Of a stretch of 47,401 nucleotides of DNA, positions 3,372 to 42,857 are shown in pieces. The position numbers and the translations under genes were made by a program. The stretch lies in IMG/VR virus record IMGVR_UViG_3300036791_000683, positions 1-47,401 of that record; one strand, 5' to 3'. Under the pieces are notes generated by a model. That model was not told where the DNA came from, did not search any database, and saw nothing but the letters and a program-made list of their open reading frames with translations. The first letter of the stretch is position 1; every line of letters begins with the position of its first letter. The DNA comes from a virus.

Positions 3372-3754
3372 ACAGGTATACGCTTACCATCCAGCTGGAC
3401 AATAAGGACCAATTCCAGCATTTCGTTGATGAAATCGGTCCGCTTATCGGGACCGTGGTCCTTAAGGTTACGCACGACGCCGGCATCGATGAAGTCCAGC
3501 CCGCCGCCGCCTCCATGCATACGATGCGCGCGCCGCGCGCGCCGCGCGTTTCGAAGGTCAACACCGCCATTATCAACGCGCTGCGCAGCGGCGACAAGGG
3601 GGTCAAGGAACTCAAGCAGGCGCTTGAGGACGCCCGCCTATCGCCCGGCTCGCTGTCGACCGGGCTCGCACAGCTGCAAAAAGCGGCGCAAGTCGAGCGC
3701 CTGGGCGGCGGCCTCTACGGGCTCCGCAACGACGTCAAAGAAGCGGCGGAGTGA
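3368..3754 (+). CDS. Putative winged-helix protein, 128 aa
   Basis: Residues 1-45 form a small beta/alpha domain. Residues 50-60 are a Pro/Arg linker (MRAPRAPRV). Residues 62-120 read as a winged helix: a first helix with NTAIINAL, a second with GVKELKQALEDA, a recognition helix with SLSTGLAQLQKA, and a wing with ERLGGGLYGL. It is therefore a likely DNA-binding regulator or accessory factor of the early region. Start (ATGA) and stop (GTGA) overlap both neighbours by 4 bp. Confidence 0.65.
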   Translation: MNRYTLTIQLDNKDQFQHFVDEIGPLIGTVVLKVTHDAGIDEVQPAAASMHTMRAPRAPRVSKVNTAIINALRSGDKGVKELKQALEDARLSPGSLSTGLAQLQKAAQVERLGGGLYGLRNDVKEAAE

Positions 3755-4116
3755 AAAACGAAGCCGACTATAAGCGCGAGCTGGTCGCGGAGGTGAAAGC
3801 CCTCCGCGGCGGCTGGGCGCGCCGGATCGAAGATCGCTGGGCGGTCGGCGTGCTCGATCTGATTTTGAAACTTCCAGATCATCCGCCGATCTTCGCGGAA
3901 GGCAAGATGATCGATGGACACAAATTTGGGCCGACCGAGCGGCAATGGGTCGAAGGCGAGCGCATGCAGCACGCAGGCTTGAAGGTCTTGCTGCTAGGCT
4001 GGAGAGAAGGAATCATGTCAGTTTCGCCCTGGGTCAAACAAGCCGACCGGCGCAAATGTGCAAATGGCGTCGACTTTATCCAAACCCTAAAGGAATATCT
4101 CAATGAACCTCGATGA
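3751..4116 (+). CDS. PD-(D/E)XK nuclease, VRR-NUC-like, 121 aa
   Basis: The length and pattern match small phage VRR-NUC or Holliday-junction-nuclease-like proteins. The core is visible: Asp36 in GVLDLIL, the E50-G51-K52 E-x-K motif after a beta strand, and Gln65 in the following PTERQ helix. These residues coordinate metal and cut DNA in the family. The start is GTG 3751, overlapping the preceding stop (GTGA). It probably acts in recombination, repair or packaging of replicative DNA together with the SSB-like protein and helicases of this arm. Confidence 0.7.
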   Translation: MKNEADYKRELVAEVKALRGGWARRIEDRWAVGVLDLILKLPDHPPIFAEGKMIDGHKFGPTERQWVEGERMQHAGLKVLLLGWREGIMSVSPWVKQADRRKCANGVDFIQTLKEYLNEPR

Positions 4117-5404: not shown

Positions 5405-6397
5405 GTGGAGCTGGTCAGATACAACGCGGCGCGCCAGGCGCTAGCGGAAGCCCATCGCGTCGACGAAGCTAAGAGCATCCGAGACAAGGCTGTCGCCATG
5501 CAGGCGTATGCGCGCCAGGCCAAGGACGGTGAATTGATCGCAATGGCGACTGAGATCCGTCTGCGCGCCGAGCGCCGCGCTGGCGAGCTTCTGATCGAGA
5601 TGCGTGAGAGCGGGGAGCGCGCGTCGGGCGGCGACGTAAGAAAAGAGTTTCGGCCCGCTACTCTTTCCGACATCGGCGTGACCAAGACGCAATCGTCACG
5701 CTGGCAAAAGCTCGCGCAGATGCCCGATGATACGTTTGAGACACGCCTTGAGACACTGAAGAGCGCAGTCGTCCGTTCAGTCGAAGCGAGCGCTGCTGAG
5801 CGTACCGCTGAGAAGAAGGAAGAGCGCGAGGCCCGCGAACGGGAGCTGGCTGCCCAGCAGACCGCGCTGCCGACTAAGCGTTATGGCGTCATCCTGGCTG
5901 ACCCCGAATGGCGCTTCGAAGTCTATAGCCGGGAGACCGGTATGGACCGCGCGGCTGATAATCACTATCCCACATCGGTCACGGACGAGATCTGCGTTCG
6001 TCCGGTCTGGAGCATAGCGGCGGACGATTGCGCGCTATTCCTCTGGGCGACAGTCCCTATGCTCCCTGACGCCCTGCGTGTCATGGAGGCTTGGGGGTTC
6101 GCCTACAAGTCCCATTGCGTCTGGATAAAGAATCGCATCGGGACTGGCTATTGGTTCCGCAACAAGCATGAACTTTTGCTGATCGGGACTAAGGGGTCGA
6201 TCCCGGCCCCGGCTATGGGAGCACAATTCGCCTCGGTGATAGACGCTTCTGTCAGCGAGCATTCAGAGAAGCCCGATGTTTTTCTTGAGCTGATCGACAG
6301 CTATTTTCCAAATCTTCCCAAGATCGAGCTAAACGCTCGCCGTTGTCGCAATGGCTGGGATGCTTGGGGCTATGAGGCTCCAATCCGCGATGAATAA
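5405..6397 (+). CDS. MT-A70 family DNA N6-adenine methyltransferase, 330 aa
   Basis: Residues 1-150 are a charged helical N-terminal domain that may read DNA or bind partners. Residues 155-320 are an MT-A70 methyltransferase domain, with the catalytic DPPW-type motif present as D166-P-E-W169, then an LFLWAT strand and a [15 protein letters not shown] segment. DPEW in place of DPPW occurs in a phage subgroup, so it need not mean loss of activity. The likely reaction is SAM-dependent methylation of adenine N6 in phage DNA, for restriction evasion or for control by methylation. The start is GTG 5405 with a GTGAGGA site upstream. Confidence 0.85.
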
Positions 6398-36786: not shown

Positions 36787-37004
36787 GCTGGCGCGGCGTG
36801 CGGAATCGGCGGCGCTCCTTTCAGCGCCTTCCGGCAACGCGCCGCCTTCAGGTTCCCCGCCCGGTCCCGCTCGCCCCTCTGGTTCGGCCATGATTCACAC
36901 TCGCGACAAGTATGCTCGGTGTCGGCCAGGGCGAAATGCGCCTGGCCAGGATGGGTCATGATGTGGGCAAGATTCTCGTCCGTCAAGTGCGGCGCGCCGA
37001 TCAC
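36744..37004 (-). CDS. Small Cys-containing protein, 86 aa
   Basis: Cysteines in the order C-x-x-C (TCRECESW), then RCRK and ACKHF suggest a small zinc-binding domain, with a conserved HLTDENLAHIMTHPGQAHF start and a Pro-rich end. It starts 4 bp inside the end of the terminase gene. The role is unknown. A head or packaging accessory is likely from position. Confidence 0.6.
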   Translation of the reverse strand: MIGAPHLTDENLAHIMTHPGQAHFALADTEHTCRECESWPNQRGERDRAGNLKAARCRKALKGAPPIPHAAPACKHFQASPRPPPV

Positions 37005-38257
37005 ACCAGTCCCCTGATCCGCCGCCTCAAGCGGCCAGTATGGCGCATCGACGACACCATGGCAATCCCGACACAGCCAGTACGGAAGGCGTCTGCTGCG
37101 TCTTCCGCCTCGTCGGGGACCGCGATCCCTGATTTGCCGCGCCGATAAGATCTGAGCCGGGCCAGCCCGCGCCGCGTGGCGAGGGCGTCAAACCACGAGG
37201 CGCCGAGCGTGGCCCGCACCACGGTGATCCCATCCTCGGTGTTGTGATTGGGCACGGTGATCACCGGTTCGGGCATCAGATTGGCCAGTTCGTGCCGCCG
37301 GCTCATTCCGGTCGATAATTCCCGCACCTCGACGTCATGCGGGAGGAGATGGCAGCGATAGCGATAGCCCCCGGCCCTGGCTTTGAGGCCAAGCAGGTCG
37401 GTGTAATGGCTCAGGCTCTTGCCGGTCCCTTCGATGTAGTCGATCCAGTGCACTTCGCGGCCGGCCAGCTGGAACAGCCAAATGCATTGCAGATGCCGAA
37501 TGCCCAAGTCCCACGCCGTGATCACGTCGGCGTTGAGATCGGGGCTGACTTTGCACACCCGGTTCTGGCTTTGCAGGGCGTTGAGGGCGTCGGCGTAATA
37601 GGCCCCCTCCACCGGAGCCTCGAACGAGTTCATCATTTCGCGCGCAAACTCGTCCGGGCTCATGTCCTTGCGCATCTCCTCGACTTCGGACGGGCTGAGG
37701 GCGTCCGATCCGGTGTCGGAGATCTTGATGTCGAAGATGTCCCAGTCCGGATCTTCTGAAGCGCGGAGATAAAGTTTGTGAAAGTGATCGTCACCTGCAC
37801 TTGTGCCGGAGATGATGGCGAAACCTCGATAGTCAGCCAGACAGGGTCGGACGACGCTCGTAAAAGCTTGAGGAGCCAGGAGAGGGTACTCGTCGAGCAC
37901 GGCGCCGTCGAGATAGATCCCGCGCATCCGCTCGTAGGCGAGCGCGCCACCGTAAAGTCTGATGTTAGCTCCGCCAGGGAAAACACAGGTCAGTTCTCCT
38001 TCCAGATAGCGAACGTCGGGAACAGTCGCGGTGTAGGCTTTCAGATATTGCCAGACCAGATCCTTGGTCTGATCGAAGCTGGGTCCGATATACGCATAAC
38101 GGGGCAGCGGCGTGGTTCTGTTGTTTTCCAGACAAGCCTTGATCAGGGTGTTGGCCAGCGCCACGGTTTTCCCCGCCCGCCGATGGCAGACGGCGAAGAT
38201 CCAGCGCTTCCTGCTGGCGTGCAGGGGGAGGAAATGCCGCCGCGGCCGGTAGGGCAG
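37001..38257 (-). CDS. Terminase large subunit, about 418 aa, start unclear
   Basis: The frame shows LPYRPRRHFLPLHASRKRW, Walker A CHRRAGKT (codons at 38188-38165), a PRYAYIGPSFDQTKD segment, Walker B with VLDEYP, and an RNase-H-like nuclease half with TAWDLGIRHLQ. It packages DNA by ATP hydrolysis and cuts concatemers. No ATG, GTG or TTG occurs in frame upstream of Walker A. 38257 is a CTG at the usual family start, and the frame is open to 38323. GTG 38271 overlaps the preceding stop (GTGA) but is one frame off. The start is therefore non-canonical, frameshifted or affected by a sequence error. Confidence 0.8.
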   Translation of the reverse strand: MPYRPRRHFLPLHASRKRWIFAVCHRRAGKTVALANTLIKACLENNRTTPLPRYAYIGPSFDQTKDLVWQYLKAYTATVPDVRYLEGELTCVFPGGANIRLYGGALAYERMRGIYLDGAVLDEYPLLAPQAFTSVVRPCLADYRGFAIISGTSAGDDHFHKLYLRASEDPDWDIFDIKISDTGSDALSPSEVEEMRKDMSPDEFAREMMNSFEAPVEGAYYADALNALQSQNRVCKVSPDLNADVITAWDLGIRHLQCIWLFQLAGREVHWIDYIEGTGKSLSHYTDLLGLKARAGGYRYRCHLLPHDVEVRELSTGMSRRHELANLMPEPVITVPNHNTEDGITVVRATLGASWFDALATRRGLARLRSYRRGKSGIAVPDEAEDAADAFRTGCVGIAMVSSMRHTGRLRRRIRGLV

Positions 38258-38267
38258 CTCGACGACG

Positions 38268-38759
38268 TCACTCGCCGGGGGCGGGGCTGTCTGGGCCTGG
38301 GTCAGGATCTTGCCACTTGAAAATCAGAGTGCGCTGCGGGGCGCTGAGGGTGAGATTGGACTGGATCGAGGCCGCCGGGGCCGGGCTGAGAGGATGCCCC
38401 TGGGCGATGCGAGAGCTGAGCAGCTTGGTGCTGGCCCATTCGAGCCGCCGATCCGTGGCAGCCGGATCATAGAGGGTGCGGATGGGGATCGAGGCGGCCC
38501 TGATCAGCGTGTGGCCGAGCGCCTCGTCGAGGACCCGCTGAAGGCGCGGGCTGTTGCGCAAGAGCCGAGTGAGGCGATGGATTGGGGTTTTGAGCAGCGA
38601 GGCCGCGCCGTCCAAATCGCCATGCGCGAGATGAATCGCCGTCGCACACTCGTCGCTGTCCAAGGGAAGGGTCAAAGGCCGCTCATCCCATGGATAATGG
38701 GGGAGCTGGACAAATTCTTCAGCCTGAGGGTCGAGCTCGGGGTCCACCAAGGTCAGCAT
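38268..38759 (-). CDS. Putative terminase small subunit, 163 aa
   Basis: The central part, AIHLAHGDLDGAASLLKTPI followed by HRLTRLLRNSPRLQRVLDEAL, is a helix-turn-helix plus long helix, typical of small terminase DNA-binding domains. The last 40 residues are Pro-rich. It lies directly before the large terminase gene, and its stop falls where that gene should start. It would recognise phage DNA for packaging. Sequence identity to a named family is not certain. It is the first gene of the leftward arm, and ATG 38759 lies seven bases after a TATACT box. Confidence 0.65.
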   Translation of the reverse strand: MLTLVDPELDPQAEEFVQLPHYPWDERPLTLPLDSDECATAIHLAHGDLDGAASLLKTPIHRLTRLLRNSPRLQRVLDEALGHTLIRAASIPIRTLYDPAATDRRLEWASTKLLSSRIAQGHPLSPAPAASIQSNLTLSAPQRTLIFKWQDPDPGPDSPAPGE

Positions 38760-38766
38760 GTACTAC

Positions 38767-38796
38767 AGTATAGCGCATGTCGGGGAGGAAGGACAC
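38767..38796 (-). promoter_or_regulatory. Leftward promoter with TATACT -10 box
   Basis: On the minus strand TATACT (38767-38772) lies seven bases before ATG 38759. A weak -35 match (GTGTCC, 38791-38796) lies 18 bases further upstream. If used, the mRNA would start at about the ATG, making the first gene of the late arm leaderless, as seen for 861 and 6438. Confidence 0.4.
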
Positions 38797-38863
38797 CCCG
38801 GCTCCGGTCCTGAGACCACCCCACCGTGGGGAGGGTCAAACGCTTCGCCGCCAGGCAAAACCG

Positions 38864-38890
38864 GGTCCGTTTAGGTCCGTATTAGGTCCG
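38864..38890. repeat. Phased GGTCCG iterons
   Basis: GGTCCG occurs at 38864, 38874 and 38885, spaced by 10 and 11 bases, i.e. once per helical turn, so that a bound protein would face the same side. An AT-rich segment follows. Confidence 0.6.
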
Positions 38891-39037
38891 CAACGTATTG
38901 GATTGAATTTGATTATGCAACGATATCAATGCGTTAGCTTATAACACCAGCTTACTACCAATAAGCGAATTCATACGTTTGGCCATCCTTAGGGCATTCA
39001 CGCGCCGACTTTGGGTAGCTGCGCAGGGCCGGCAAGG

Positions 39038-39063
39038 AAGGGCGAGACCACCGCCTCGCCCTT
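39038..39063. other. 9-bp hairpin beside the iterons
   Basis: AAGGGCGAG (39038-39046) and CTCGCCCTT (39055-39063) are perfectly complementary with an 8-base loop, and TTTGAATTCC follows on the plus strand. It could terminate transcripts or be part of the origin structure. Confidence 0.5.
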
Positions 39064-39072
39064 TGAATTCCA

Positions 39073-39112
39073 CCTCCGATGGCCTCCGATGGCCTCCGAT
39101 GGCCTCCGATGG
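39073..39112. repeat. Four tandem 10-bp repeats CCTCCGATGG
   Basis: Four perfect head-to-tail copies start at 39073, 39083, 39093 and 39103. A near copy, AATGGCCTCCGAG, lies at 39164-39176. The 10-bp period equals about one turn of DNA, which is typical of initiator or regulator binding arrays. Confidence 0.85.
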
Positions 39113-39120
39113 CGTTTGCC

Positions 39121-39185
39121 CTTGCCTTCTCGCTCGCTTTGGCGTATAACTCCCAGTTGCAACCAATGGCCTCCGAGAAGGCAGG
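39121..39185. repeat. Inverted repeat next to the iterons
   Basis: CTTGCCTTCTCG (39121-39132) is complementary to CGAGAAGGCAGG (39174-39185) at 11 of 12 positions, with a 41-base interval that holds the partial iteron. Confidence 0.6.
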
Positions 39186-39239
39186 TTGTAGAGCAAAACC
39201 GCTCTATCTTTACCTCACATAAAACATCCCGAGCTTTAA

Positions 39240-39353
39240 CGTCTTTACTGATGCTATTTACGCGTGCGCGTAAAATATTCATCTTCTACATATCTTTTCT
39301 GTTACTAAAGCCTTTTAAATTCTCCGCACGCGTAAATAGAAGGAGTAAAGACG
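39240..39353. repeat. Long two-block palindrome with AT-rich centre
   Basis: CGTCTTTACT (39240-39249) and CTATTTACGCGTGCG (39254-39268) are exactly complementary to AGTAAAGACG (39344-39353) and CGCACGCGTAAATAG (39325-39339). A 4-base unmatched spacer lies between the blocks on each side. The 56-base centre is AT-rich. The left arm also contains a smaller palindrome, TTTACGCG-TG-CGCGTAAA (39257-39274). The right arm ends 3 bases before a -35 box. Confidence 0.85.
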
Positions 39354-39356
39354 CTA

Positions 39357-39386
39357 TTGACTAGAGTGTTTCATGTATGCTAAAGA
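39357..39386 (+). promoter_or_regulatory. Rightward promoter beside the palindrome
   Basis: TTGACT (39357-39362), 18 bases, then TAAAGA (39381-39386). Start of transcription near 39393 leaves a leader of about 38 bases before ATG 39431. The palindrome arm ends three bases before the -35 box, so a bound dimer could block or help RNA polymerase. Confidence 0.45.
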
Positions 39387-39430
39387 AAAAAGCCCTAATA
39401 AATACAGACTACTCAACTTGGAGTTGAAAT

Positions 39431-39850
39431 ATGACCGACAAACAACCAAAATCCAACCCACCCTTGGAGGACAAGCTAGAAGAGTGGAGGGCTTTCTCCG
39501 AGCGCTACTACCAATACCACGTTCACCGCCGGCGATTGTCCCTGCCGGCGCGCTGCACGGTTTACGCCATGGTCTATATGGGTTTTCGCCATGTCGACAT
39601 CGCGCACGCCATCGGCATTTCAAAAGCGAGCGTTGGGCAGATCGCGCGCGCATCGTGCGAAGGCTATTACGCCAAAGTCCGGCAGGAGTTCGAACGCCTA
39701 GGCCCGGATGATTTTTGCCGCACATATCTCTACGAGGACGCCAAAACCCGGCTGCTGCGCTTGCGCTTGCAAGCCAATGAGCCCAAAGCGACCGAAGAAT
39801 TTTTGAACAACCGCGACAATTATCTTGACAAAGAAAACCAAGAGGACTAA
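39431..39850 (+). CDS. HTH DNA-binding protein, first gene of rightward arm, 139 aa
   Basis: Residues 47-75 (YMGFRHVDIAHAIGISKASVGQIARA) form a helix-turn-helix. The first 40 residues are charged and helical, and the C-terminal half is a long charged helix (RTYLYEDAKTRLLRLRLQAN). As the first gene behind the control region it is a good candidate for a regulator of the palindrome or iterons. ATG 39431 has GGAG about ten bases before it. Its stop codon is part of the next promoter's -10 box. Confidence 0.7.
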   Translation: MTDKQPKSNPPLEDKLEEWRAFSERYYQYHVHRRRLSLPARCTVYAMVYMGFRHVDIAHAIGISKASVGQIARASCEGYYAKVRQEFERLGPDDFCRTYLYEDAKTRLLRLRLQANEPKATEEFLNNRDNYLDKENQED

Positions 39851-39853
39851 ATT
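39825..39853 (+). promoter_or_regulatory. Sigma70-like promoter TTGACA-N17-TAAATT
   Basis: TTGACA (39825-39830), 17 bases, TAAATT (39848-39853), the same pattern as at 6403. It lies in the end of the HTH gene, whose stop TAA (39848-39850) is within the -10. A leader of about 42 bases with an AGGAGAAAA ribosome site follows before ATG 39902. Confidence 0.7.
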
Positions 39854-39901
39854 AAAGGCGTTCACAGCGAGCGATCAGCTCGAAACCAGGAGAAAACCGA
39901 C

Positions 39902-40945
39902 ATGGCCCACAATCTTGAATTCCGCAACGGCGAATATTCGTTCGCCTTCACCGGCGACCGCGGCGCCGTCTGGCATAGGCTCGGCCAGCAAATGGCCGAC
40001 GGCGCAACCGCAGCCGAATGGATCGCAGCCTCTGGCTTCGATTATCGCGTGCTCAAAGTCCCGGCCGTCGCTTCCCTGATCGGCCCGGACTTCGATCACC
40101 TCAGCGGCCGCTTCGCCGAAAGTGATAAGAAATTCATCGTCCGTCAGGACAGCGGCCGCGTGCTCGGCATCGCCAGTGACGGCTATAAGCCGGTTCAGCC
40201 TGCCGATGTCTGGGAATGGTTCGAGCGCTACATCACCATCGATGAGCGCTTCCATATCGACGCCGCCGGCGTGCTTGGCTCCGGCGAACGGCTTTGGATC
40301 AGCGCTCAATTTCAGGGCGACCAAACCATCGCCGGCGACCGCCATCTCGCGCGCCTCCTGATGTCGACCTCGTTCGACAGTTCACAGGCGACCCGCAACG
40401 AAGCCACCATGACCCGCGTCGTATGCCAGAACACCTTGCGGCTCGCGCACGCCAACGCCAAGGCTCTGATCAAAACCCGCCATTCGACCGCCTTCAACGG
40501 CGCCGCCGTGGCGCGCGAGCTGAGCCAAATCGCCTCCTCGTTCGCCGAATTCAAGGCGATGGGCGACGCGATGGCGCAAGTGGCGATGACCGGCCAGCAG
40601 GTGTCGGACTTTTTCAAGCGCTTGCTTGATGTCGATCCGGCCGTGAATATGCGCGACAAAGACAAGGTCTCCACCCGCACCGCTAACATCTTTGATGGGC
40701 TGAAGACCACTTGCCGGATCACTCAGCAGGAGCGCAACTCGGATCAGCATGACGTGTGGACGGCGTTGCAAGCCGTGACGCGCTACGTCGACCATGACCG
40801 GACCGTGCGCAACGCGTCCAATGAAAATGTCGGACGCTTCGACAGCGGAACCTTCGGCAGCGGCGACGCCATGAAGGGCAAGGCGCTCGAATTGCTCTTG
40901 CCGATGGTCGATAAGAGCCTGTTTCGCGCGCCGGTTGCGGCCTGA
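39902..40945 (+). CDS. DUF932 (phage/plasmid-like TIGR03299) protein, 347 aa
   Basis: The start MAHNLEFRNGEYSFAFTGDR, then AVWHRLGQQM, then VRQDSGRVLGIASDGYKPVQ and the block LLMSTSFDSSQATRNEATMTRVVCQNTL are the signature of DUF932. The family is found on phages and plasmids and is of unknown molecular function, often near replication genes. Its own strong promoter suggests high early expression. Length is typical. Confidence 0.85.
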   Translation: MAHNLEFRNGEYSFAFTGDRGAVWHRLGQQMADGATAAEWIAASGFDYRVLKVPAVASLIGPDFDHLSGRFAESDKKFIVRQDSGRVLGIASDGYKPVQPADVWEWFERYITIDERFHIDAAGVLGSGERLWISAQFQGDQTIAGDRHLARLLMSTSFDSSQATRNEATMTRVVCQNTLRLAHANAKALIKTRHSTAFNGAAVARELSQIASSFAEFKAMGDAMAQVAMTGQQVSDFFKRLLDVDPAVNMRDKDKVSTRTANIFDGLKTTCRITQQERNSDQHDVWTALQAVTRYVDHDRTVRNASNENVGRFDSGTFGSGDAMKGKALELLLPMVDKSLFRAPVAA

Positions 40946-40953
40946 TCGCAGTT

Positions 40954-40983
40954 TATGCGCGTCCCGTCACAAGGGCGCGCATA
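40954..40983 (+). other. Hairpin after the DUF932 gene
   Basis: TATGCGCG (40954-40961) pairs with CGCGCATA (40976-40983). After a bulged T, CCC (40963-40965) pairs with GGG (40973-40975), leaving a 7-base loop. The 11-bp stem has no U tail, so it may protect or process the mRNA rather than terminate it. Confidence 0.5.
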
Positions 40984-41013
40984 TGCGGCGGCCATGCCGA
41001 TAGGAGAAAACCA

Positions 41014-41226
41014 ATGATGTATGCTTGCGACAATTGCGAATGGACCGGTCAAAAGCGGGAGTTGCAGCCCATCAAACGATATTGGGAACGTGTGGATGAG
41101 GATAGCGGTCATGAGCCTGACGGGGAATGCCCTAAGTGCGGCTGTCTCGCTTATGCGCGCCCCGACGACGGCGACGACGGCGAATTCGGCGCCCGGGTCG
41201 ACTTCGAGTTTGACAAAACGCGATGA
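41014..41226 (+). CDS. Zinc-ribbon protein, 70 aa
   Basis: CDNCEWTG near the start and ECPKCGCLAY near residue 40 form the two Cys pairs of a zinc ribbon. The last 20 residues are very acidic (DDGDDGE) and end FDFEFDKTR-like. Such proteins often bind nucleic acid or partner proteins. ATG 41014 follows TAGGAGAAAA. It overlaps the next gene by 4 bp. Confidence 0.7.
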   Translation: MMYACDNCEWTGQKRELQPIKRYWERVDEDSGHEPDGECPKCGCLAYARPDDGDDGEFGARVDFEFDKTR

Positions 41227-41459
41227 CCCGGCAGCTGAACCGGCCCAAAACGCCGGATGATTGGCGCGAGCGCCTAGCCACGTTCGAACGCCATCATCCG
41301 GATGACGAATCTGGCAAGCGCGTTTCGGTCTTGACCGTCGACGCCTATATGGCCAAACGCCGCGCCTCACGGCGGCCCGCGCTCCTTCGCATTGGGGCGT
41401 TCCTATGGGCTTTGCTGATTTTGGCCGCCCTTATCGTGATCCTCTATGATCAGGATTGA
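41223..41459 (+). CDS. Small C-terminally anchored membrane protein, 78 aa
   Basis: Residues 1-52 are charged and soluble. Residues 55-75 (LLRIGAFLWALLILAALIVI) form a single membrane helix near the end. The topology suggests a tail-anchored inner-membrane protein. ATG 41223 overlaps the preceding stop as ATGA, and its end overlaps the GcrA-like gene by 14 bp. No family is recognised. Confidence 0.6.
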   Translation: MTRQLNRPKTPDDWRERLATFERHHPDDESGKRVSVLTVDAYMAKRRASRRPALLRIGAFLWALLILAALIVILYDQD

Positions 41460-41772
41460 CGCCATCGCCAAGCTCTGGACGCAGGGCCGGTCCCTGACCG
41501 AGATTGGCCTTGCGCTCGGCCTAAGCCGCGGCGCCGTCGCCGGCGAGATCAATCGCGCGCGCCTTCGCCGCGACCCGCGTTTTTTAAAGTTTCGTCTCAG
41601 CCCGTTCGCCAAGCCGCCGCTTCCGCCGCGCGTCCTGGTCGACCTGCGCTTGCACGATTGCCGCTGGGCGGTCGGCCTGACGCCTGACGACCTGCACCTG
41701 TTTTGTGGCCAGCCTCAAGCCGCCGGCTCGCCTTATTGCGCCAAGCATCGGGATCGGGCGCAGCGCGGTTAA
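41446..41772 (+). CDS. GcrA-like regulator, 108 aa
   Basis: The N-terminus (residues 5-40, AIAKLWTQGRSLTEIGLALG then LSRGAVAGEINRARL) is the helix-turn-helix of GcrA-type proteins. The C-terminus keeps the family pattern C72-R-W, F-C87-G and P-Y-C98-x-x-H101, probably a zinc site. In Alphaproteobacteria GcrA binds sigma70 RNA polymerase and activates promoters with CcrM-methylated GANTC. A phage copy could redirect host transcription to phage promoters or tie it to methylation. Function here is inference. Confidence 0.75.
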   Translation: MIRIDAIAKLWTQGRSLTEIGLALGLSRGAVAGEINRARLRRDPRFLKFRLSPFAKPPLPPRVLVDLRLHDCRWAVGLTPDDLHLFCGQPQAAGSPYCAKHRDRAQRG

Positions 41773-41796
41773 TTGTCCTTTTTATTGTTTTTATTG

Positions 41797-41825
41797 TTGA
41801 CAAGTTCAAGAAATTGTTCTACGTT
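41797..41825 (+). promoter_or_regulatory. Sigma70-like promoter TTGACA-N17-TACGTT
   Basis: TTGACA (41797-41802), 17 bases, TACGTT (41820-41825). A T-rich stretch with a duplicated TTTTTATTG lies just upstream (about 41778-41795) and could act as an UP element. The leader carries a CAGGAGA site before ATG 41849. Confidence 0.5.
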
Positions 41826-41848
41826 TCCCTTGGTTCAGGAGAAGCGTT

Positions 41849-42055
41849 ATGTCCGCTCAATCTCAATATCGATCGCCAAAAACGATCTTCATTCGCGCCG
41901 TTAACCGAAAAACCAACTTGCTTTGGCGCGGCACGCTGGCTGAGTTTTTCGATGAATTTGGTTTTCCCCATGAACAGCAAATCAATGTGCTGAGTGAGGT
42001 TTTGCGCACCTTTCAGCATTTGGGAGAAACGTGGGTTATTGAAGTTACGGGTTGA
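41849..42055 (+). CDS. Small hypothetical protein, 68 aa
   Basis: MSAQSQYRSPKTIFIRAVNR, then a Phe-rich amphipathic middle (LAEFFDEFGFPHEQQINVLS) and WVIEVTG at the end. It has no membrane segment or known motif. It has its own promoter and a good ribosome site, so it is expressed apart from the regulator upstream. Function is unknown. Confidence 0.6.
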   Translation: MSAQSQYRSPKTIFIRAVNRKTNLLWRGTLAEFFDEFGFPHEQQINVLSEVLRTFQHLGETWVIEVTG

Positions 42056-42060
42056 AATGG

Positions 42061-42072
42061 GGGGCCGGCCCC
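42061..42072 (+). other. Perfect 12-bp palindrome GGGGCCGGCCCC
   Basis: This lies 5 bases after the preceding stop and 32 bases before the next ATG. In RNA it can form only a tight stem or a dimer. It may be an operator or a processing site. No T run follows. Confidence 0.4.
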
Positions 42073-42104
42073 GATCAGCCGCCCAACCATGAAGGATGGG
42101 AACA

Positions 42105-42347
42105 ATGTCAGTCCGAGAAATTGTAACGTGGCAATTTTACGATTACAACCAAAATTTATGGCTTAGCGGCGAGCCGAGCGTTCACGCGGTTTGGATCGAC
42201 GCCGAGCATTGGCTGAGGGCGCGCGTGGTGACGCCCGAGGCTGATTTGGTCTCTATGAGCCAGGACCCGCTGTCGCTGGCCATAACGCTGATCGTCAGTT
42301 GTTCGCCCGAAACCGCAGATTGGCTTTACGCTCATGGTCAAGCTTAG
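42105..42347 (+). CDS. Small hypothetical protein, 80 aa
   Basis: ATG 42105 follows AAGGATGGG; an in-frame TTG at 42096 is less likely. The product has many Trp, Tyr and Asp residues (WQFYDYNQNLWLSGEPSVHA) and an alternating pattern of a small alpha/beta domain. No family is recognised. Its end overlaps a tiny membrane-protein gene. Confidence 0.6.
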   Translation: MSVREIVTWQFYDYNQNLWLSGEPSVHAVWIDAEHWLRARVVTPEADLVSMSQDPLSLAITLIVSCSPETADWLYAHGQA

Positions 42348-42453
42348 CGCTACGCTCCTGATCATGACGTTCATTGCTTTTTGCTTTTTTGTGTTGGGCT
42401 TTGCGCTCGGTTTATTCGTGGCCTATCCGGCCCATGAGACCTGGGCGGGTTGA
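42334..42453 (+). CDS. Tiny membrane protein, 39 aa
   Basis: A short frame from ATG 42334 to TGA 42453 encodes a single-helix protein: MVKLSATLLI, then MTFIAFCFFVLGFALGLFVA, with a polar end (YPAHETWAG). It overlaps the preceding gene by 14 bp, as elsewhere in this operon. Without sequence relatives, it could be a small inner-membrane peptide or a chance frame. I favour a real gene from the tight overlap and the clean hydrophobic profile. Confidence 0.45.
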   Translation: MVKLSATLLIMTFIAFCFFVLGFALGLFVAYPAHETWAG

Positions 42454-42478
42454 AATACAGGATAAAATAGACTAGACA
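42450..42478 (+). promoter_or_regulatory. Weak candidate promoter TTGAAA-N17-TAGACA
   Basis: TTGAAA (42450-42455) and TAGACA (42473-42478) have 17-base spacing, but the -10 matches the consensus poorly. A leader of about 30 bases with an AGGGGG stretch follows before ATG 42516. Confidence 0.25.
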
Positions 42479-42515
42479 AACAAAGGGGGACTAAAAACCT
42501 GAGGATTTTCACACT

Positions 42516-42857
42516 ATGCCATCCGTTAGCTTGAACGAAACTCTAATCTACCGCGCCAGACGACGCACGCGTGAAGATGGCCTGAGCGTTGAAGAACGGG
42601 TCGCCATCAACCTGTTCCGGCGCCGTCACGTGCGTGTGCCGACTTTAGCCGCGGCCTTCGAGGTGTCAAAAAACACCATTTATTATAAATGCTTAAGAGG
42701 AACAGACAAAGCCGACGAAGTTAACGGGCTGATCAGCCGATTAGGCGAAAAGCAAGCCTGGAACCAATTCGTCACTGATGAAATGGTGAATAAAGTCAAT
42801 ACCCAAATGGCTTTGGAAGTCCAGGTGAGGGAGGACGAGGAGCGTGACGCCACGTGA
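42516..42857 (+). CDS. HTH DNA-binding protein, 113 aa
   Basis: Residues 35-62 (RRRHVRVPTLAAAFEVSKNT, then IYYKCLRG) are a helix-turn-helix in which the recognition helix begins SKNTIYY. The first 30 residues are basic and helical, and the C-terminus is a long charged helix ending in an acidic stretch (REDEERD). It may be a regulator of the primase gene downstream. It overlaps the next gene by 14 bp. Confidence 0.65.
   Translation: MPSVSLNETLIYRARRRTREDGLSVEERVAINLFRRRHVRVPTLAAAFEVSKNTIYYKCLRGTDKADEVNGLISRLGEKQAWNQFVTDEMVNKVNTQMALEVQVREDEERDAT

Follow-up and report, generated by a model that had tools for sequence, protein, structure and literature searches.

The open reading frame at 41446-41772 of the phage DNA analysed here is, on sequence and predicted fold, a real phage GcrA homologue of known kind, compact and divergent, and it probably helps the virus to redirect transcription. 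A role in transcription is plausible because the protein is related to GcrA in both respects and because its setting is alphaproteobacterial. GcrA is statistically independent of phage DNA methylases in a terminase-matched set of phages, and the account towards which we lean is that compact phage GcrA serves as an early sigma70 cofactor, using host methylation or none, while the MT-A70 methylase of the same genome is an independent accessory.

The phage and its variable slots

The stretch analysed in full (the window) comprises 47,401 bases of one virus record, a complete-looking phage contig with a 23-bp terminal repeat. Its backbone is shared with four near-complete kin (G051, G052, G056, G060), and in G051 the genes from both window ends run in one continuous order. 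When the ends are joined accordingly, gcrA and the MT-A70 gene share a strand and are separated by about 11 kb. Named-phage relatives of the portal include Ochrobactrum phage vB_OspP_OH and Sinorhizobium phage phiM5; relatives of the methylase in bacterial genomes are alphaproteobacterial at all 6 of 6 loci, the taxa being Bradyrhizobium, Bosea, Pelagibacterium and Xanthobacteraceae. The virus infects soil bacteria. The features referred to below are:

3751-4116, + strand: conserved endonuclease-like gene that bounds the methylase's variable slot on the left
5405-6397, + strand: MT-A70 methyltransferase, 330 aa, catalytic motif DPEW, matching PF05063
6438-7862, + strand: conserved SNF2-type helicase, right border of the methylase slot
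37001-38164, - strand: large subunit of the terminase, the first of the conserved genes in the late block, which runs leftward
41014-41226, + strand: 70-aa ORF with a CxxC..CxxC pattern and no Pfam family, just upstream
41223-41459, + strand: small ORF of 78 aa that ends in a hydrophobic C-terminus and shares 14 bases with the gcrA start
41446-41772, + strand: gcrA-like gene, 108 aa, matching PF07750, with an HTH, a short linker and a C-terminal domain of sigma-interacting type
42516-42857, + strand: conserved small HTH gene that bounds the variable slot of gcrA on the right

The gcrA gene occupies a variable slot bounded by the terminase side and by the HTH gene that starts at 42516, and its 14-base overlap with the preceding ORF makes it probable that the two belong to the same operon.

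A compact GcrA homologue

A sequence-only reading of this DNA had seen in the 41446-41772 product the HTH of GcrA and a C-terminal Cys/His pattern, and had named failure to match GcrA profiles as a refutation. The protein does match: Pfam PF07750 (GcrA) is hit at 60 bits (E 4.8e-16), the curated cut-off being 26.9 bits, in two stretches that correspond to profile positions 7-53, the HTH, and 100-145, the C-terminal domain, with the linker (54-99) unmatched. The lack of this linker, which in Caulobacter is disordered and about 60 residues long, does not exclude the protein from the family, because linker length varies among its members. In the window protein the HTH spans residues ~3-39 and the sigma-interacting-type domain ~62-105, with ~22 residues between them. 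Caulobacter GcrA is the top match of a phmmer search of PDB sequences (7ye1, E 2.8e-7; 5yix, SID, E 0.0015). The Cys/His pattern is also as described: in an alignment of 19 phage sequences C72, C87 and C98 are nearly invariant, and H101 occupies the CxxH position.

An AlphaFold model, made with the window protein and 18 phage relatives as input, has a mean pLDDT of 85.7 and a pTM of 0.45, with pLDDT >90 in blocks covering residues 11-40 (the HTH). The first three PDB chains that Foldseek returned for it are all Caulobacter GcrA (7ye1_G, E 0.0025; 5yix_B, E 0.031; 7ye2_G, E 0.22), none of the PDB matches being at E <=0.001; 5yix_B aligns with a TM of 0.76 by target and 2.0 A over 47 columns. 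Among viral models 11 matches were found at E <=0.001, of which 7 are named GcrA and 4 are without a name.

No close relative of the window protein was found in IMG/VR by a single-sequence scan, and no phage record in INPHARED was matched by tblastn. This isolation, like the gene's position in a variable slot, is what would be seen if gcrA were passive cargo, recently gained and of no lasting function in this phage. We judge that explanation very improbable: the frame is open, and R28, G33, R37, C72, C87 and C98, the residues conserved across the family, have all been kept in an otherwise divergent sequence, which points to selection on the gene.

The MT-A70 methylase and its specificity

The second gene singled out by the sequence-only reading, an MT-A70 methyltransferase at 5405-6397, is equally real: it scores 75.9 bits against PF05063 (cut-off 23.9), Pfam gives the MT-A70 family alone, and the solved structures nearest to it in sequence are those of m6A enzymes from the MT-A70 family. 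The proposal built on it, that the phage's own methylase supplies the mark on which its GcrA acts, would require a phage m6A enzyme with the specificity of CcrM. Enzymes of this kind have been described: passages of PMC5537653 report phage methylases acting on GANTC (phiLM21_p027, phi2LM21_p21, phi3LM21_p21 and Paracoccus prophage enzymes) with the motif NPPW/F/Y. They belong, however, to another family, and the window enzyme, with DPEW and no NPPW/F/Y, does not fit the phiLM21_p027 type. The phage MT-A70 enzyme for which we found a published specificity, PhiBZS1_p32, is GATC-specific according to the portion of PMC7556043 that deals with it, which argues against the window enzyme as the source of a GANTC mark.

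Compared with the phage MT-A70 DNA methylases PhiBZS1_p32 and HK639, the window enzyme has ~150 extra N-terminal residues and DPEW rather than DPPW; the catalytic domain of the HK639 enzyme is 28% identical to it. DPEW is a clade feature of the window methylase and its relatives, replacing DPPW in 32 of the 39 relatives examined, a set found partly by this motif. Reading the specificity of the enzyme from site counts was tried and abandoned: GATC is present at 1.24x its expected number in the window, an excess that tells us nothing because the four kin of the same backbone, which have no methylase, show 1.09-1.19. A wider palindrome scan for the methylase target yielded no clear candidate. Certain palindromes are rare in the window (GAGCTC 3 vs 12 expected, CTGCAG 1 vs 10, CTCGAG 3 vs 14) and on average are not depleted in its four kin.

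Co-occurrence of GcrA and methylases

Among 51 distinct viral contigs related to the phage through its portal or its helicase (from 20 of 52 portal loci and 42/42 helicase loci, 11 contigs being in both sets), GcrA was found in none and MT-A70 in one; the positive control for this search gave a signal in 41 of 43 records. Both genes are therefore accessory. That they should nevertheless be present together here is one reason to consider a self-contained epigenetic switch, in which the phage MT-A70 enzyme would methylate a site read by the phage GcrA, and methylated phage promoters would thereby be activated. Other contigs appear to offer the same combination: those with an MT-A70 relative had GcrA in 12/41 cases at E <=0.01 and in 11/41 over the cut-off, compared with 1/40 among portal or DUF932 relatives (p 0.003; drawn from 20 of 52 loci for the portal and 20 of 22 for DUF932). 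Contigs with a methylase of the phiLM21_p027 type, from 50 of 80 loci, had GcrA in 11/50, 8 of these over the cut-off.

A neutral marker removed the association. We used the terminase of phiLM21, with 44 of 80 loci and longer contigs picked, and in these 44 terminase-matched contigs GcrA was over the cut-off in 17, MT-A70 in 11 and phiLM21_p027 relatives in 12. MT-A70 was present in 5/17 GcrA-positive and 6/27 GcrA-negative contigs (Fisher p 0.72), the phiLM21-type GANTC methylase in 3/17 and 9/27 (p 0.32), and either methylase in 8/17 and 15/27 (p 0.76). The first contrast thus reflected phage lineage, and joint acquisition of GcrA and MT-A70 as a module was discarded as an explanation. MT-A70 was found in 2 of the 10 named GcrA phages searched; the other 8 do without it.

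Where both gave clear matches, GcrA and a methylase lie on one strand in 16/17 deduplicated contigs, with a median gap of 1.06 kb and a gap <=2.5 kb in 12/17 (Fisher p 1e-8 against uniform placement; G028 and G029 were left out as duplicates of G024 and G027, and the weak matches G001, G124, G142 and G145 counted only in the row for all contigs). We rejected this adjacency as proof of coupling because both are early genes, which accounts for their proximity. Real pairs do exist, but not above chance in the matched set: gcrA is directly upstream, within ~30 bases, of a phiLM21_p027-type (GANTC) methylase at L287:4312-5645 and L255:4387-5630, and at L036:586-1704, in a viral contig, it precedes an MT-A70 gene by ~30-65 bases. 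These pairs speak for the self-contained switch. In the window, though, the two genes are 11 kb apart and, together with the matched-set result, the named phages lacking MT-A70 and the GATC specificity of the characterised enzyme, this makes such a switch improbable. Of the earlier proposal of methylation-linked transcription run by the phage itself, then, the transcriptional role stays plausible for a GcrA homologue in Alphaproteobacteria, and the supply of methylation by the phage's own enzyme is not supported. The open-access papers that we searched gave no example of a phage GcrA working as a late activator or coupled with a phage methylase.

GANTC sites in the window and its kin

GANTC is depleted in the window, with 78 sites against ~193-222 expected, and is no more frequent between genes than expected (9 of the 78 in noncoding sequence vs 10.0, counted with a hand-chosen gene set), which also speaks against coupling of GcrA to the phage's own methylase. 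The depletion extends to most related contigs, with or without GcrA or a methylase, and passages of PMC9516812 report it for pelagiphages. A cluster of GANTC in the window's terminase-portal gap (36803, 36892, 36971) was considered as a candidate and dropped, since GcrA-free kin show GANTC there too. Scanning 38100-42600 for promoters produced 4 matches vs 2.0 expected, which we do not use as evidence. Two contigs have hardly any GANTC: G070 (L165-L167, 42.8 kb) has 0 vs ~149 expected and G068 (L163-L164) has 4 vs 146. This looks like general restriction-site avoidance, because both also lack several 6-base palindromes (CAGCTG, TGATCA, ACCGGT).

GcrA upstream of the terminase

GcrA phages have so far been noted singly, and it was guessed that they drive the cell cycle of the host. 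In the group with phiLM21-like terminases gcrA is common (17/44 contigs) and its position is constant: in 17/17 GcrA-positive contigs it is on the TerL strand, 2.4-9.5 kb upstream of the terminase. The stretch upstream of the terminase is the usual place of late-gene activators, and at the place where the control contigs have gcrA, phiLM21 has a NusG-like antitermination gene.

GANTC density in this region also differs. In the interval 3 to 1 kb before the terminase, a stretch picked after a first look at the bins, there are 2.18 sites per kb in GcrA-positive and 1.15 in GcrA-negative contigs (Mann-Whitney, uncorrected p 0.001; 14 and 26 representatives respectively, 4/44 having been dropped as near-duplicates). 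The excess is confined to this interval (p 0.005, 0.019); the same comparison showed no GANTC difference within the terminase or farther upstream. CTNAG, GTNAC, CANTG, AGNCT and GATC show no difference between the two groups in the stretch before the terminase, and TCNGA differs in the direction opposite to GANTC (p 0.022). Related contigs have several of these GANTC sites at the same fixed offsets, and the excess may alternatively be shared by descent, or by transfer of a block together with gcrA; we regard it as a lead.

The upstream position, the greater number of GANTC sites nearby and the lack of linkage to phage methylases together point to regulation of phage genes by host methylation. 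It can be proposed, at low probability, that many alphaproteobacterial phages use GcrA as a transcription switch acting at methylated GANTC. From its place just upstream of the packaging genes GcrA would activate late or middle genes of the phage through the host RNA polymerase, and methylation of GANTC by the host (or the phage) would tie the phage programme to DNA methylation; the window copy would be a compact one, moved to the early block in a phage family otherwise free of GcrA. In the window gcrA belongs to the early block, whose direction diverges from that of the late block, and it is not directly upstream of a co-directional terminase, so that a role there like the one suggested by the control set would be an inference.

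A proposed model for the window protein

The early-cofactor account that we prefer would work as follows. Made from the rightward (early) genes, GcrA would bind domain 2 of the main host sigma factor through its C-terminal domain and would use its HTH to direct the polymerase to certain promoters, to the advantage of phage genes or chosen host genes. Any m6A that it reads would most simply come from the host's CcrM; the phage MT-A70 gene would be an accessory independent of it, with DNA protection as the likeliest function. Against this account stand the departure of the recognition helix from the bacterial form, the scarcity of GANTC in the window with no excess between genes, and the position of gcrA away from a co-directional terminase.

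Comparison with known GcrA systems

Caulobacter crescentus GcrA (PF07750; PDB 5yix, 5z7i, 7ye1) has, like the window protein, an HTH and a C-terminal sigma-interacting Cys/His domain. The sections of PMC7403470 on its architecture present it as a sigma2-binding activator with a DBD at 1-45, a linker at 46-107 and an SID at 108-173. The window protein has 108 residues to its 173 and almost no linker, most of which, by comparison with the Caulobacter layout, it has therefore lost.

The recognition helix differs as well. The best-scoring copy in each of six named bacterial genomes reads TRNAVIGK, whereas the window protein has SRGAVAGE, that is RG..E (RGAVAGE) in place of the RN..K (RNxVxGK type) of bacterial copies. 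Reading of m6A-GANTC by the window protein can thus not be assumed, and from its helix it may recognise another site or none. Phage recognition helices are variable in any case (RHph_Y1_10 SRGMISGI, phiCbK TKSAVCGK).

A host-like SID, a lost linker and an altered HTH would suit a protein that opposes the host cell cycle or takes it over, a short GcrA that competes for sigma70 or mimics host GcrA, so that the host is pushed into S phase or its GcrA regulon is blocked. A role in the cell cycle was proposed for phiCbK gp222, in the part of PMC3556154 concerned with it. We think the antagonist reading rather unlikely here: the HTH, superfluous for a pure competitor, has been kept and is confidently modelled, and many phage GcrAs are full length.

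Phage proteins of the same family, published or annotated as such, include, besides phiCbK gp222, Agrobacterium phage Atu_ph08 gp5, Brucella phage Y17 ORF4/5 and the GcrA of Rhizobium phage RHph_Y1_10. A different arrangement is seen at L006:3805-4773, a 323-aa phage protein with the GcrA unit at its C-terminus and other HTH-like stretches N-terminal to it. Four records labelled as Synechococcus or Nostoc phages (PP438432, OM868079, OP858991, PP438413) encode GcrA or a GANTC-type methylase; these host names may be mistaken, or an accompanying alphaproteobacterium may be the real host. The RHph_Y1_10 protein has the RG and CRWA variants in common with the window protein but is longer, and for the window itself the result is a modest one: another, shortened, phage GcrA.
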